Below the pieces are notes generated by a model. That model was given only the letters and a program-made list of their open reading frames with translations, had not been told where the DNA came from and did no database searches. Positions 59,739 through 64,000 of a stretch of 64,000 nucleotides of DNA are shown here, piece after piece (position 1 is the stretch's first letter; every line of letters starts with the position of its first letter). This DNA is from Proteus columbae. GTDB lineage: Bacteria > Pseudomonadota > Gammaproteobacteria > Enterobacterales > Enterobacteriaceae. The translations under genes and the position numbers were made by a program. The stretch covers positions 3,906,001 through 3,970,000 of the forward strand of contig NZ_CP043925.1 of the NCBI RefSeq assembly GCF_009914335.1, read 5' to 3'.

Positions 59739-61907
59739 TTAATGCGTCACTGTCTTTGCTTGCTCTACTAAGTTAATTAAACGGCTTCTCATGGTGTGAT
59801 AATGTTGAGAAACTTGGCTTTCTGCCCATTTTTGATCATCAATTTTAATCACTTTAGCCGCACAATATTTGGTTTCAGGGGTTTTTGAAACAGGATCAAG
59901 ATTATCTTGAGTCAGTTCATTACATGCCCCTATCCACCATTGATAAGTCATATAAATCGCTTGCTTGTTGATTGTCTCATTCACATTACAGCGAGACATC
60001 ACTTTACCGCGGCGAGATTCAACCCAGACAATTTCCTGATCACGGATCCCAGCCTCTTTAGCAATTTCTGGGTGAACTTGAACATAACCCGGTTCATCGG
60101 CTAATGATGCCAATGCTTTACAGTTACCTGTCATGGAGCGACATGAGTAATGCCCAACTTCACGCACGGTTGATAGGATCATCGGATAATCCGCATCAGG
60201 TAATTCAGCTGGTGCGCGCCACGGTGTCGCAAATAACTTACCTTTACCTGATGGTGTGGTGAAGTGGTTACCAGAATACAAATAAGGCGTTCCCTTATCT
60301 TCAATATCGGTACAAGGCCATTGAATATGCGCTAAGCCTGCCAATTTTTCATAAGTGACACCAAAAAACAGTGGGCATAATGCTCTAACTTCATTCCAGA
60401 TCTCTTCGTTATTTTCATAAGACATCGGATAGCCCATTTCAGTGGCGAGTAAACTGATGATCTCCCAATCTCGTTTTACATTGCCCTTAGGTTCAATGGC
60501 TTTTTCAAAACGTTGGAAGCCTCTATCGGCACACGTAAAGATCCCCGCATGTTCACCCCAGCTAGTTGATGGTAAAATCACATCCGCTTGCTCTGCTGTT
60601 TTGGTCATAAAGATATCTTGAACTACCACAAAATCGAGCGCTTCAAAGCCCTTTCTCACTAAGCCTAAATCTGCCTCTGTTTGGAGTGGATCTTCACCCA
60701 TGATGTAATAGGCTTTCACCTTACCTTCAATGGCTAAATGAGGGACTTCGGTAATGCGATATCCCACATCTGGATCGAGTTGTTCAACAGGAATATTCCA
60801 TGCTTGTGCAAATTTTTTACGGGTTTCTTCGTCAGTGACATACTGGTATCCCGGAAACATATTCGGTAAAACGCCCATATCACAGGCACCTTGAACATTA
60901 TTTTGCCCACGAACGGGTGCAACACCCACATGCGGTTTACCTAAATTTCCTGTTAATAAAGCAAGACCTGATAACCCTTTTACCACATCAACCGCTTGGC
61001 CAAACTGTGTGACGCCCATTCCCCACATAATAGTGGCCGTTTTAGCGCCCGCATAAGTGCGCATTGCTTTACGAATTTCAATAGCAGGAATGCCTACAAT
61101 ATCTTGCACAGCTTCAGGGCTATAGTCTGCGAGTTGTTTTTTATATTCTTCAAAGCCTTCTGTGTATTGGCTCACATAGTCTTTATCATAAAGATCTTCA
61201 TCAATTAGCGTGTATGCGAAGGCATTGACTAACGCCATATTAGTACCATTTTTTAATGGTAAATATTGGTTAGCAATTTTAGCGGTTTCGATTTTACGAG
61301 GATCACAAACGATAATTTTGGCACCCTTTTGTTTCGCTTTAACCACACGACGCGCCACAATAGGATGAGAATCTGCACAGTTATAGCCAAACACTAATAA
61401 GCAATCTGAGTCTTCAATATCCGCAATAGAGTTGCTCATGGCACCATTACCTAATGTTTCTTGCAAACCGGCAACAGAAGGTCCATGGCAAACACGCGCA
61501 CAACAATCGACATTATTATTACCTAATACTGCACGCACAAATTTCTGCATCACAAAGTTGGTTTCATTCCCTGTACCACGAGAAGATCCCGTACACATGA
61601 TGGATTTCGCACCGTATTTTTCTTTTATTTCCAGTAATTTTTTTGCCGTAAATTGAATAGCTTCATTCCAACTCACAATTTCAAAACCAGCCCCTTTTTG
61701 TCGGCGGATCATCGGCTCATGAATTCTGGCTGTCAGCAATTTGTTGTCATTAAGGAAATCCCAACCATATAGCCCTTTTAAGCAAAGTTCGCCTTGATTG
61801 GTGACACCATTAGCACCTTCGGCTTTGATTATGCGACCATTTTCGACACAGAGATTGATTTTGCAGCCAGCGCCACAATAAGGACAGACGGAGTTGATTT
61901 TGTTCAT
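59739..61907 (-). CDS. fdhF: Formate dehydrogenase H-type enzyme, cysteine form
   Basis: The 722-residue cytosolic molybdoenzyme is similar to E. coli FdhF (715). The [4Fe-4S] ligands are Cys8, Cys11, Cys15 and Cys42 (VCPYCGAGCK, GELCLKG). The aligned position to Sec140 is Cys140 in CCARVCHGPSVAGLQETLGNGAMSNSI, codon TGC (61490-61488 on the minus strand). No signal peptide. In E. coli it forms part of the formate-hydrogen lyase complex; the hyc genes are not in this window. A sigma-54 promoter lies upstream, and the gene converges on fdoI. Confidence 0.93.
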   Translation of the reverse strand: MNKINSVCPYCGAGCKINLCVENGRIIKAEGANGVTNQGELCLKGLYGWDFLNDNKLLTARIHEPMIRRQKGAGFEIVSWNEAIQFTAKKLLEIKEKYGAKSIMCTGSSRGTGNETNFVMQKFVRAVLGNNNVDCCARVCHGPSVAGLQETLGNGAMSNSIADIEDSDCLLVFGYNCADSHPIVARRVVKAKQKGAKIIVCDPRKIETAKIANQYLPLKNGTNMALVNAFAYTLIDEDLYDKDYVSQYTEGFEEYKKQLADYSPEAVQDIVGIPAIEIRKAMRTYAGAKTATIMWGMGVTQFGQAVDVVKGLSGLALLTGNLGKPHVGVAPVRGQNNVQGACDMGVLPNMFPGYQYVTDEETRKKFAQAWNIPVEQLDPDVGYRITEVPHLAIEGKVKAYYIMGEDPLQTEADLGLVRKGFEALDFVVVQDIFMTKTAEQADVILPSTSWGEHAGIFTCADRGFQRFEKAIEPKGNVKRDWEIISLLATEMGYPMSYENNEEIWNEVRALCPLFFGVTYEKLAGLAHIQWPCTDIEDKGTPYLYSGNHFTTPSGKGKLFATPWRAPAELPDADYPMILSTVREVGHYSCRSMTGNCKALASLADEPGYVQVHPEIAKEAGIRDQEIVWVESRRGKVMSRCNVNETINKQAIYMTYQWWIGACNELTQDNLDPVSKTPETKYCAAKVIKIDDQKWAESQVSQHYHTMRSRLINLVEQAKTVTH

Positions 61908-61962
61908 TTGATATCCTTTCCCCTAACTAGGGAGTAAAAGAGTCATAAAGAACTTTCAACTA

Positions 61963-61978
61963 AGCAGGAATTATGCCA
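61963..61978 (-). promoter_or_regulatory. Sigma-54 promoter of fdhF
   Basis: On the minus strand TGGCAT-AATTC-CTGCT has GG and GC exactly 12 bases apart, as in the -24/-12 consensus. It is 56 bases from the start. E. coli fdhF is also sigma-54 dependent, through FhlA. Confidence 0.8.
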
Positions 61979-62269
61979 ATTAATTTTTTAAATATAATCA
62001 ATAAGATATAAAAAAACAAAATAATGTTTAATAACCGTTTCGACATTTTTGCCGATGTTCACCTTACACAAAGAAGGTTAATTCCATAACTTATTACGAT
62101 ATTTAGCCATTGGCATCAGAAAAACATTTAAAAATAAAAATTAACACTGAATTCTAATAAATTTTATTTATTTAGTTTGAATTTATGATATAAATAACAA
62201 ATACGCATTTTGAAAAACAATATTTCATATTGCATTGCGATGATATCCATTTCAATAAAGAGCAAAAAG

Positions 62270-62326
62270 ATGAACATGAACACTAATAACCGACTTTTAG
62301 GCCTAAACCTACTACTACTTCGTTAG
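62270..62326 (+). CDS. Leucine-rich leader peptide (leuL-like)
   Basis: This 18-residue ORF, MNMNTNNRLLGLNLLLLR, has seven leucines, four of them consecutive (CTA CTA CTA CTT), and one CTA before them. The SD AAGAG is at 62257-62261. Clusters of CTA codons are the mark of leucine attenuators such as leuL and of other amino-acid leader peptides, which stall ribosomes when leucyl-tRNA is scarce. It is followed within 30 bases by mutually exclusive hairpins. A second in-frame ATG at 62276 is possible. No known gene product corresponds, so the assignment as a leader is by design, not homology. Confidence 0.75.
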   Translation: MNMNTNNRLLGLNLLLLR

Positions 62327-62397
62327 GTGGCCGCGCTTATTCATCTTTTGCAAAAGCCACCAGTAAGGTGGTTTTTTTGTTTGTAACCTACTGGTGG
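62326..62397 (+). promoter_or_regulatory. Leucine-responsive attenuator of the NSS transporter
   Basis: Terminator: GCCACC (62356-62361), loop AGTAA, GGTGG (62367-62371), seven T. Antiterminator option: GGTGGC (62326-62331), overlapping the leader stop, pairs perfectly with GCCACC. A third option: CCACCAGTA (62357-62365) pairs over nine bases with TACTGGTGG (62389-62397). Segment 62308-62312 (CCTAC) inside the Leu codons can pair with GTAGG-like TTAGG at the stop, as a protector stem. A ribosome stalled on the Leu codons would free the antiterminator. Confidence 0.7.
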
Positions 62398-62422
62398 AAC
62401 TGATTTTTTTTAGGGGAGTTCT

Positions 62423-62530
62423 ATGATGTTTAGTTTCACCACAAAGGTTATGAATTACAACGTCTTATCTGCAATTCGTTGTTTGCCAGCTACCTCCATC
62501 ACTAAAATAATTAAATCGGAGGCAAAATGA
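62423..62530 (+). CDS. 35-residue ORF, translationally coupled to the NSS transporter
   Basis: From ATG at 62423 (SD AGGGGAG, 62413-62418) the frame reads MMFSFTTKVM, then NYNVLSAIRCL and ends SEAK, with the TGA at 62528-62530. The transporter ATG at 62527 overlaps it (ATGA). Its SD lies inside the last codons of this ORF (GGAGG). The frame is too short for ordinary gene calls. Its role may be translational control of the transporter or a small partner protein. I know no homologue, and it may also start at the second ATG (62426). Confidence 0.55.
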   Translation: MMFSFTTKVMNYNVLSAIRCLPATSITKIIKSEAK

Positions 62531-63843
62531 GCCAGCAATGGACATCACGAGTCGGCCATATCTTAGCAGCCGCAGGCTCTGCAATCGGTATTGGCGCAAT
62601 CTGGAAGTTTTCTTATGTCGCTGCCAATAATGGTGGTGGTGCATTCTTAATCGTCTTCTTATTATTTAGTTTTATTATCGGGCTTGCGGTATTACTGGCT
62701 GAAAATATATTAGGCAGTAGCACACACGCCGAAGCAGTTAATGCATTTAAGAAAATGATGGGGCGCAATTGGGTCATCATTGGCGTTATTGGTGTATTCA
62801 GTTCATGGTGTATTTATAGCTTCTATAGTGTTGTCGGTGGTTGGACAATTGGCTATACCGTTATGGCGGCAACAGGTCAGTTGAATATTACAGATAGCGC
62901 TGAATTAACGGGTATTTTTACCCGCTTTATTAGTGATCCTTTATGGCCTATTTTGGCTCACCTTACTTTTGCTGGATTAACCTGTTTTGTGGTTTTAGCA
63001 GGTGTACAACGCGGATTAGAAAAAGCCGTTAAAATCATGATGCCAATGTTATTTATCATTATGATTTTATTGATTATTGTTGGTATTAGCTTACCTGGTT
63101 CGTCTGAAGGTTTAAAATTATTTTTATACCCTGATTTCAGCAAATTAACCCCTCAAGGCGTATTAGATGCGTTAGGGTTAGCCTTCTTCTCACTGTCTAT
63201 CGGTTTAGGTATTCACATCACTTACAGTGCTTATTTAGCGGATAATAAAGGTATTGCTAACTCAAGTATGTGGGTGGTTATTCTGTCTTGTATGGTGTGT
63301 GTACTTGCCGGATTAATGATTTTCCCTGCATTATCTGCCGCAGGCTTAGAACCTAATGCGGGTCCTGGCTTAACCTTTATGACCATGCCAGTTTATTTTG
63401 CCAACTTACCCGGTGGCAATATTTTAGCCGTGACGTTCTTTGTCTTGTTATTAATGGCAGCGTTAACTTCTGCAATTTCATTACTGGAACATATCGTCGC
63501 TTATGTACAGATGCGTTTTCAGTGGACACGCCGTCGTGCAGGGTTAGTCGTAACCGCATCGATTATGTTGATGGGTATTCCTGTGTCATTATCTTTTGGA
63601 CCGATGAGTGATGTGACGCTGGGGGGCAAAACAGTCTTCGATTTATTGGATTACCTGACTTCTAATATTTTGATGCCACTGTTTGGTATTGCAATGTGTT
63701 TAATCTTTGGTTGGTCACGTAGAGCGAATGCTTTTATTCCTGAAAATATCACAGGATTAAAACGTCAAAGCTTATTATTAGTATGGCGTTATATTGGGCC
63801 AATTTGTATCGGGATTATTTTAGTGCATGGTTTGATTGGTTAG
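62527..63843 (+). CDS. Sodium-dependent amino acid transporter (NSS/SNF family)
   Basis: The 438-residue, 11-helix symporter has TM1 with GHILAAAGSAIGIGAIWKFSYVAANNGGGAFLIVFLLF, the LeuT-fold signature (W-K-F, N-G-G-G-A-F), and TM6/TM8 with the Na+ site region LGLAFFSLSIGLGIHITYSAYLADN. No extracellular loop typical of animal carriers is seen. The substrate is an amino acid; the leucine attenuator suggests leucine or another branched-chain residue. The start overlaps the small ORF at 62423. Terminates before the hairpin at 63856. Confidence 0.88.
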   Translation: MSQQWTSRVGHILAAAGSAIGIGAIWKFSYVAANNGGGAFLIVFLLFSFIIGLAVLLAENILGSSTHAEAVNAFKKMMGRNWVIIGVIGVFSSWCIYSFYSVVGGWTIGYTVMAATGQLNITDSAELTGIFTRFISDPLWPILAHLTFAGLTCFVVLAGVQRGLEKAVKIMMPMLFIIMILLIIVGISLPGSSEGLKLFLYPDFSKLTPQGVLDALGLAFFSLSIGLGIHITYSAYLADNKGIANSSMWVVILSCMVCVLAGLMIFPALSAAGLEPNAGPGLTFMTMPVYFANLPGGNILAVTFFVLLLMAALTSAISLLEHIVAYVQMRFQWTRRRAGLVVTASIMLMGIPVSLSFGPMSDVTLGGKTVFDLLDYLTSNILMPLFGIAMCLIFGWSRRANAFIPENITGLKRQSLLLVWRYIGPICIGIILVHGLIG

Positions 63844-63855
63844 TCATCAGCAAAA

Positions 63856-63880
63856 AGAGCCACTCAAAATGAGTGGCTCT
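63856..63880. terminator. Bidirectional hairpin after the transporter
   Basis: AGAGCCACTC (63856-63865) pairs exactly with GAGTGGCTCT (63871-63880). On the minus strand TTTTTGC follows, so it is the terminator of the partial gene on the right. Confidence 0.8.
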
Positions 63881-63930
63881 CGACTTAACTGATAATGATT
63901 TATTGATGGATACTTGATAGCTTTTACTGC

Positions 63931-64000
63931 TTATTTATAGCTTTGCTTAATTTCTTGAGAAATCGCTAACCCACGTTTTGCTTCTTTTTCAGCAAGTTCA
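63931..64000 (-). CDS. Partial gene, 3' end only
   Basis: The minus strand ends ELAEKEAKRGLAISQEIKQSYK with the stop TAA at 63933-63931; the remainder lies beyond the window. It is helical and charged; no family can be named. It ends before the bidirectional terminator at 63856, which supports a real gene. Confidence 0.55.
   Translation of the reverse strand, partial: ELAEKEAKRGLAISQEIKQSYK

Follow-up and report, generated by a model that had tools for sequence, protein, structure and literature searches.

Textbook accounts of amino-acid synthesis have it controlled by leader-peptide attenuation. Three published systems resemble the locus described here. Histidine-leader attenuators have been predicted in Gram-positive bacteria on the his operon and/or the transporter genes hisZYX (PMC9413887), the mgtCBR operon of Salmonella carries the proline-codon attenuator mgtP, which responds to low prolyl-tRNA (PMC3641672), and ilvD of Staphylococcus aureus is preceded by a leucine-rich attenuator peptide (PMC5794164). 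With the first two in print, starvation-type attenuation of a transporter gene is in itself no novelty.

The window, the whole stretch of 64,000 nucleotides of Proteus columbae DNA that was analysed, contains a gene for a sodium symporter of the NSS/SLC6 family. The sequence and conservation of its 5′ leader make it highly likely that this leader is a ribosome-mediated transcription attenuator that senses charged leucyl-tRNA and controls an importer. The importer would very probably be made only at leucine shortage. The features of the region are listed below in window coordinates; cells are those of the alignment described further on.

62257-62262, + strand: Shine-Dalgarno-like AAAGAG for the leader ORF, from sequence (AAAGAG or GAAGAG in Proteus and Morganella rows)
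62262-62274, + strand: arm 0, the leader initiation region, predicted to pair with the spacer 62340-62351 (fold model, shuffled-spacer comparison)
62270-62326, + strand: leader peptide ORF, MNMNTNNRLLGLNLLLLR and stop; 18 sense codons, 7 Leu, 4 CTA
62300-62311, + strand: arm 1 (GGCC at 62300-62303 and ACCTA at 62307-62311), pairing with 62324-62332 (91.3% of cells)
62326-62331, + strand: arm 2, the antiterminator 5′ arm GGTGGC (pairs with arm 3 in 99.5% of cells)
62340-62351, + strand: spacer between arms 2 and 3, whose sequence complements the leader start (shuffled-spacer comparison)
62352-62361, + strand: arm 3, AAAAGCCACC, common to antiterminator and terminator, with GCCACC at 62356-62361 (covariation)
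62367-62378, + strand: 3′ part of the intrinsic terminator, arm 4 (GGTGG) with its run of seven T (100% of cells paired)
62386-62397, + strand: arm 5, a further potential partner of arm 3, at 62357-62369 (87.1% of cells paired)
62396-62422, + strand: possible hairpin GGAACT/AGTTCT just 5′ of ORF2, at its Shine-Dalgarno sequence (62413-62418), predicted from pair counts
62423-62530, + strand: ORF2, 35 codons, stop overlapping the NSS start in ATGA (sequence, comparison)
62527-63843, + strand: NSS/SLC6 family sodium symporter, 438 aa (PF00209, 185.6 bits, cut-off 27; closest solved relative 4us3)

The leader is a predicted short ORF with a start site and a run of codons for one amino acid. It begins with ATG at 62270 and ends with TAG at 62324-62326. 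Its Leu codons, CTT TTA CTA CTA CTA CTA CTT, are codons 9, 10, 12 and 14-17, and the row CTA CTA CTA CTT occupies 62309-62320, as the initial annotation had described for its ORF of 18 codons with seven Leu. The Leu content (7/17) has a binomial probability of 2.7e-4 at the 8.4% Leu found in the codons of five window genes, and of 2.3e-3 if 12% Leu is assumed. Leu columns and codon positions were counted in 16 of the 20 distinct Proteus leaders, with L005, L007, L029 and L131 excluded for length or register. In the pattern search across orthologues, a later leader start was chosen by eye for L012, L034, L120 and L123 over the upstream start given by the script. Six of the seven Leu columns were Leu in 16/16 leaders, four of these six with synonymous changes, and variable sites numbered 9, 4 and 12 at codon positions 1, 2 and 3, a pattern suggesting only a mild coding signal.

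The Leu codons stay Leu across genera, and the non-Leu residues of the leader differ from genus to genus. A leader that sensed slow translation in general, or the decoding of rare CTA by one tRNA, instead of leucine supply would account for the enrichment of CTA, which makes up 57/112 Leu codons in the 16 Proteus leaders vs 9/227 in the five window genes. We regard such a sensor as quite improbable, as the amino acid is conserved and the codon is not: the Leu codons are CTC/CTT in genus g223 and a mix of CTA, CTT, CTC and CTG in Edwardsiella. Most Leu codons of the Proteus leaders are the rare CTA, and the leuL leader of the same genome, a leucine attenuator proper, likewise has a run of CTA CTA CTA CTC.

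An intrinsic terminator is located between the leader ORF and the structural gene at 62352-62378 (AAAAGCCACC-AGTAA-GGTGGTTTTT), with its seven T at 62372-62378, and the NSS gene starts approximately 150 nt 3′ of it. The competing GGTGGC at 62326-62331 has one base in common with the leader stop codon; it forms the 5′ arm of a mutually exclusive antiterminator and, in the fold model, lies under a ribosome at the leader stop. Both elements were thus recovered as initially annotated. In the naked RNA, arms 1 and 2 are predicted to pair (P 0.86; 91.3% of cells), which would leave arm 3 free in the absence of leader translation. The pairing of the leader start with the spacer, the third competitor arm and the overlapping ORF2 are additions to the earlier description. 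In L003 and L029, an inverted repeat GCAGTGA..TCACTGC is found approximately 35-60 nt 5′ of the leader ORF, near the expected promoter; it is not present in that form in the window.

The gene 5′ of the attenuator (59739-61907) lies on the opposite strand, which places the terminator within the 5′ region of the NSS gene. Its product is a molybdopterin oxidoreductase by Pfam and appears FdhF-like by reading. This protein has the motif ARVCHGPS with Cys140 (window 61435-61495, - strand) at a position that we take to be the selenocysteine site in FdhF, and sub-threshold matches to SECIS_2 (27.1 bits, cut-off 70) and SECIS_3 (26.4 bits, cut-off 63) lie over the Cys140 codon; Cys140 looks like a former selenocysteine site.

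At E<=1e-120, the NSS protein was matched in 23/392 genomes of the family (7/154 genera) and in 20/20 genomes of the genus. Named genomes were scanned as well, yielding 78 loci from the best 80 of 158, with no Providencia among the named loci. Orthologues of at least 60% identity provided 51 distinct upstream stretches (74 in all), and the attenuator was present in 34 of these, 33 by pattern and Xenorhabdus locus L027 by eye. The 34 carriers belong to Proteus (20), Morganella (6), Xenorhabdus (2; L027 and L028), Edwardsiella (4) and genus g223 (2); for part of them the genus was assigned through upstream sequences identical to those of named genomes and carrying the same genus number. All 20 of the 20 Proteus genomes (L079, L109-L112, L129-L143) have the attenuator. 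It was absent from 17/51 distinct upstream stretches of the orthologues. In 11 of these 17 (L014, L016-L018, L020-L022, L024-L026 and L033), the start of a brnQ-like ORF overlaps the NSS start by pattern, and L022:2301-2504 was identified by Pfam, in L022 only, as a fragment of Branch_AA_trans (PF05525, E 5.8e-12). A brnQ-like start precedes the NSS gene in the majority of named Xenorhabdus, as if NSS had taken the place of brnQ.

An RNA model built on the 34 aligned sequences was run on the 392 family genomes with stricter filters, under which weak matches are lost. It matched 18/392 genomes once each, 17 directly 5′ of an NSS gene and one (G513, genus g234) before a broken NSS gene. The 17 intact matches are in the model or identical to sequences in it, so that the G513 match alone is independent. 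In that locus (L205), the NSS gene is broken by a stop and an internal loss, and the Leu-leader attenuator is still recognisable. Six of the 23 NSS-bearing family genomes had no RNA-model match (four of g11, one of g134 and one of g240). Use of the same attenuator before other genes was considered and set aside, as under these strict filters the model matched NSS loci only (18/392 genomes).

The attenuator was found in at least four different gene neighbourhoods. The neighbour is an FdhF-like gene in Proteus (window, L006, L010), a pyridoxal-dependent decarboxylase gene together with one autotransporter gene in Morganella (one locus, L009), uspB together with the gene of a PHO4-family transporter in Edwardsiella (one locus, L031), and uspB with, by eye, the same PHO4-family transporter gene after it in g223 (one locus, L120); in Xenorhabdus L027 (one locus), a PurF-like gene comes after the NSS gene. 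The attenuator stays with its gene across several genomic neighbourhoods.

Conservation of the helices was assessed in an alignment of the 34 sequences, in which 33 rows are distinct. In the terminator 3:4, 100% of cells pair and two pairs differ on both sides; its covariation score was reached by 0/500 shuffles. The antiterminator 2:3 is paired in 99.5% (one pair changed on both sides; covariation 1/500), 1:2 in 91.3% (one pair; 0/500) and 3:5 in 87.1% (four pairs; 0/500). For 3:4, 2:3, 1:2 and 3:5, respectively, 286, 287, 490 and 88 of 500 shuffles had at least as many doubly changed pairs, and 500, 287, 500 and 322 at least as many further pair types; by these two counts 3:4 and 2:3 did not stand out from the shuffles. 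Sliding the 2:3 register by +3 columns raised its covariation (0.114 vs 0.088), yet only 67% of cells were then paired. RNAalifold on this alignment proposed 3:4 alone. Predicted energies are of the same order for the two exclusive helices (2:3, -10.7 to -17.0 kcal/mol; 3:4, -10.7 to -20.9 kcal/mol).

The four Edwardsiella rows show a concerted change of one base in each of arms 2, 3 and 4 (T,A,T to C,G,C) that keeps both exclusive helices; on the aligned sequences, this is the strongest single fact for the switch structure. In g223 the bases at these three positions are T,G,C, and a G-U pair preserves 2:3. The base changes represent few independent events because the alignment rows are related. 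Loss of the Leu codons or of the competing stems in relatives had been named as grounds for abandoning the proposal; both are kept, with compensatory changes, in the five genera where the attenuator is present, and 17/51 stretches are without it. The leuL-type design that had been proposed is thereby supported.

Chance occurrence was assessed in the window. A detector requiring a terminator, a complement acting as antiterminator and a short ORF with a Shine-Dalgarno sequence found one case, the Proteus leader, among 24 terminators on both window strands, and 0 cases in ten Markov-randomised sequences of 64 kb (640 kb, one strand each). A simple terminator scan of 900 bases gave 2 terminator-like sites, that of the attenuator included, vs 0.8 expected. 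The minimum-energy fold of 62260-62425 had a z of -1.36, with 20/200 shuffles equally good; this single-sequence fold is only mildly better than shuffles, so that folding alone is no proof and the comparison of sequences supplies it. A plain constitutive terminator next to a chance ORF, with expression by read-through or from another promoter, would leave just such an unremarkable fold, and terminator-like sites occur at 24 places in the window. The conservation of leader and arms with coordinated changes, and the lack of any case in randomised sequence, make that account extremely unlikely.

The same strict detector, applied to 40 hand-picked NSS upstream stretches (one or a few per genus, among the matches listed), found none. 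Its sensitivity is limited, because it also missed L027, L031, L032, L120-L123, L125 and the Aeromonas cases described below. The idea that NSS genes in general have such leaders was not retained on this count (0/40, at that limited sensitivity).

In the proposed mechanism of leucine attenuation, a ribosome would translate the leader ORF right behind RNA polymerase. With ample charged tRNA-Leu it would reach the stop and cover arm 2, 3:4 would pair and transcription would terminate at 62372-62378. When leucyl-tRNA is scarce, the ribosome would stall at Leu codons 9-14 with arm 1 covered, 2:3 would pair, the terminator would come too late to form and the importer would be transcribed. Without leader translation, arms 1 and 2 would pair and the terminator would form. 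We infer that leucine acts as the cellular signal and is one of the substrates taken up, and that read-through changes.

These states were examined in a two-state fold model that kept the RNA under each ribosome footprint unpaired. At the stage when arm 4 is still to be made, and with a second ribosome on the leader start, P(2:3) was 1.00 for a ribosome stalled at codons 9, 10, 12 or 14, 0.82 at codon 15 and 0.00 at codons 16, 17 and the stop; stalls at Leu 16 and 17 are predicted to cover arm 2. Without the second ribosome, the start/spacer pairing kept P(2:3) at 0.02-0.07 at codons 9-14 and 0.00 beyond. In the model, two-state behaviour was obtained for stalls at codons 9-14 with a following ribosome and failed without it. 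Once arm 4 is made, equilibrium favoured 3:4 in every state (P(3:4) 0.61-1.00), and the terminator's advantage at that stage means that kinetic control is needed. Taken together, the initial annotation is correct in its anatomy and very probably in its mechanism.

Complementarity between leader start and spacer is seen in Proteus, Morganella and Xenorhabdus, and less so in g223. At most 10/500 shuffled spacers paired as well in L079, L001, L009, L028 and L120; in Edwardsiella L031 and L034, 282 and 493 of 500 did. In a cross-clade comparison, the cognate spacer was not always the best partner of the leader start. In the model, this pairing could close the leader to further ribosomes, and a similar self-limitation is known for trpL of Escherichia coli.

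Downstream of the terminator, ORF2 is 31-36 codons long in Proteus and Morganella (26 stretches) and 13 codons long in g223, with an ATGA overlap with the NSS start; the overlap is GTGA in the two Xenorhabdus stretches. Edwardsiella has just a two-codon ATG TTA TGA, which overlaps the start of a longer NSS protein. The ORF2 frame survives length changes of 3 and 12 nt (L131, L010), and its start is like MM...T.R/K in Proteus and Morganella. ORF2 is presumably translated and coupled with NSS, whose translation would be aided by the overlap of the ORF2 stop with the NSS start; by its sequence, ORF2 may be more than a coupling device. Arm 5 could, in the model, pair with arm 3 after read-through.

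An arrest peptide like TnaC, responding to a ligand in free form, or a switch acting mainly on ORF2/NSS translation through arms 3, 5 and 6, would give a reason for the conservation of arm 5 and for the ORF2 overlap, which was seen in 20 stretches of Proteus, 6 of Morganella and, in the form GTGA, 2 of Xenorhabdus. Such a reading is very unlikely, given that leader residues besides Leu differ between genera and that constrained folding left the ORF2 Shine-Dalgarno sequence closed whichever helix was formed. Opening of that sequence by 3:5 pairing was likewise rejected, its open probability being <=0.06 in 33/33 sequences with 2:3, 3:4 or a free arm 3 imposed. Attenuation by leucyl-tRNA is thus retained as the preferred reading.

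The controlled gene had been named as an NSS transporter, and PF00209 confirms it, well above its cut-off. Among solved structures, the protein is closest in sequence to 4us3 (318 bits), followed by LeuT entries (127-130 bits). We take 4us3, with the entry title sodium-dependent transporter, to be MhsT. The substrates of MhsT are a range of hydrophobic amino acids. MhsT-like import of hydrophobic amino acids, leucine included, by the NSS protein is putative, and the attenuator predicts leucine as a physiological substrate of the transporter. The leader also suggests a ready-made reporter of leucine starvation.

A second NSS paralogue in Aeromonas has its own attenuator-like leader and terminator (MS..LFGRFF..QER and stop). 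In 19 of 21 distinct stretches (from L036-L038, L040, L041, L043 and L082-L101), a terminator was found together with a leader that encodes a GRF core and contains between two and six Phe codons, and the 2:3 duplex in those 19 is strong, with a predicted energy of -14.0 to -22.5 kcal/mol. ORF2 has 8 codons in the four of these stretches examined. The Aeromonas leader appears independently built and attenuator-like, a candidate Phe-containing sensor. We hold tentatively, and somewhat short of even confidence, that tRNA-charging attenuators on NSS importers are recurrent in gammaproteobacteria, with a Leu type in five genera and an independent Phe-containing type in Aeromonas, and that the Leu type combines a self-closing start with a third partner of arm 3 located 3′ of the terminator. 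This third partner is possibly a second checkpoint that uses the same 5′ arm.

Among described attenuators, that of leuABCD in the same genome offers the most direct comparison. It served as a positive control, being recognised 5′ of leuA by RF00512 Leu_leader (G000:C1:2893533-2893670, 52.1 bits). The two leaders are alike in having a Leu-rich ORF with a CTA run, a terminator and an antiterminator, and in folding, in the model, into 2:3 in stalled states and 3:4 at equilibrium. For leuL, P(2:3) was 0.97-0.98 for stalls at codons 6-12, and P(3:4) 0.87-0.99 afterwards. The second ribosome required for 2:3 in the NSS leader model is unnecessary for leuL. Arm 2 lies at the leader stop in the NSS leader and within the coding part in leuL, so that P(2:3) for leuL was still 0.81 at the stop; as the leuL model fails to separate stall from stop, and the NSS leader model separates them, leuL is only a rough yardstick. 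Unlike leuL, the NSS leader has the start/spacer pairing, arm 5 and ORF2.

By family membership, the NSS leader neither scores as RF00512 nor precedes leuABCD. Against a gathering cut-off of 50 bits, RF00512 gave no match at the NSS leader in window 60000-64000 up to E=1 and, up to E=5, none at the attenuators of L009, L031, L120, L028 and L010; the weak scores for Leu_leader within L031 fall 3′ of the NSS gene, away from the attenuator. No Rfam family matched the window leader up to E=1, and T-box families were not among the three Rfam matches in window 60000-64000 up to E=1. Derivation of the NSS leader from leuL by copying was not retained, as the longest DNA match between them, 12 nt within the Leu run, does not establish a shared origin.

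The His-leader systems (PMC9413887) resemble the NSS leader as starvation-type attenuators predicted for amino-acid transporter genes and differ in using histidine, an ABC transporter and Gram-positive hosts. The mgtP system (PMC3641672) shares an attenuator with a codon-rich ORF on a transporter-containing operon; it differs in that the operon concerns a Mg2+ transporter, has two tandem attenuators with different signals and does not import proline as its substrate. The ilvD leader of S. aureus (PMC5794164) shares a Leu-codon leader and Leu-dependent attenuation, on a biosynthesis operon of a Gram-positive bacterium. MhsT is the nearest solved relative of the NSS gene product, a relation of sequence only. 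Among the matches listed from the open-access literature, none described an attenuator before an NSS gene or a leucine-starvation attenuator on a transporter; within that scope, a known kind of sensor has a new sort of target here, with added conserved parts. Where leuL acts on leuABCD, the NSS leader stands before a PF00209 transporter, and the kind of sensor used in amino-acid synthesis appears here to be connected to uptake, by way of a bacterial protein related to the neurotransmitter transporters.
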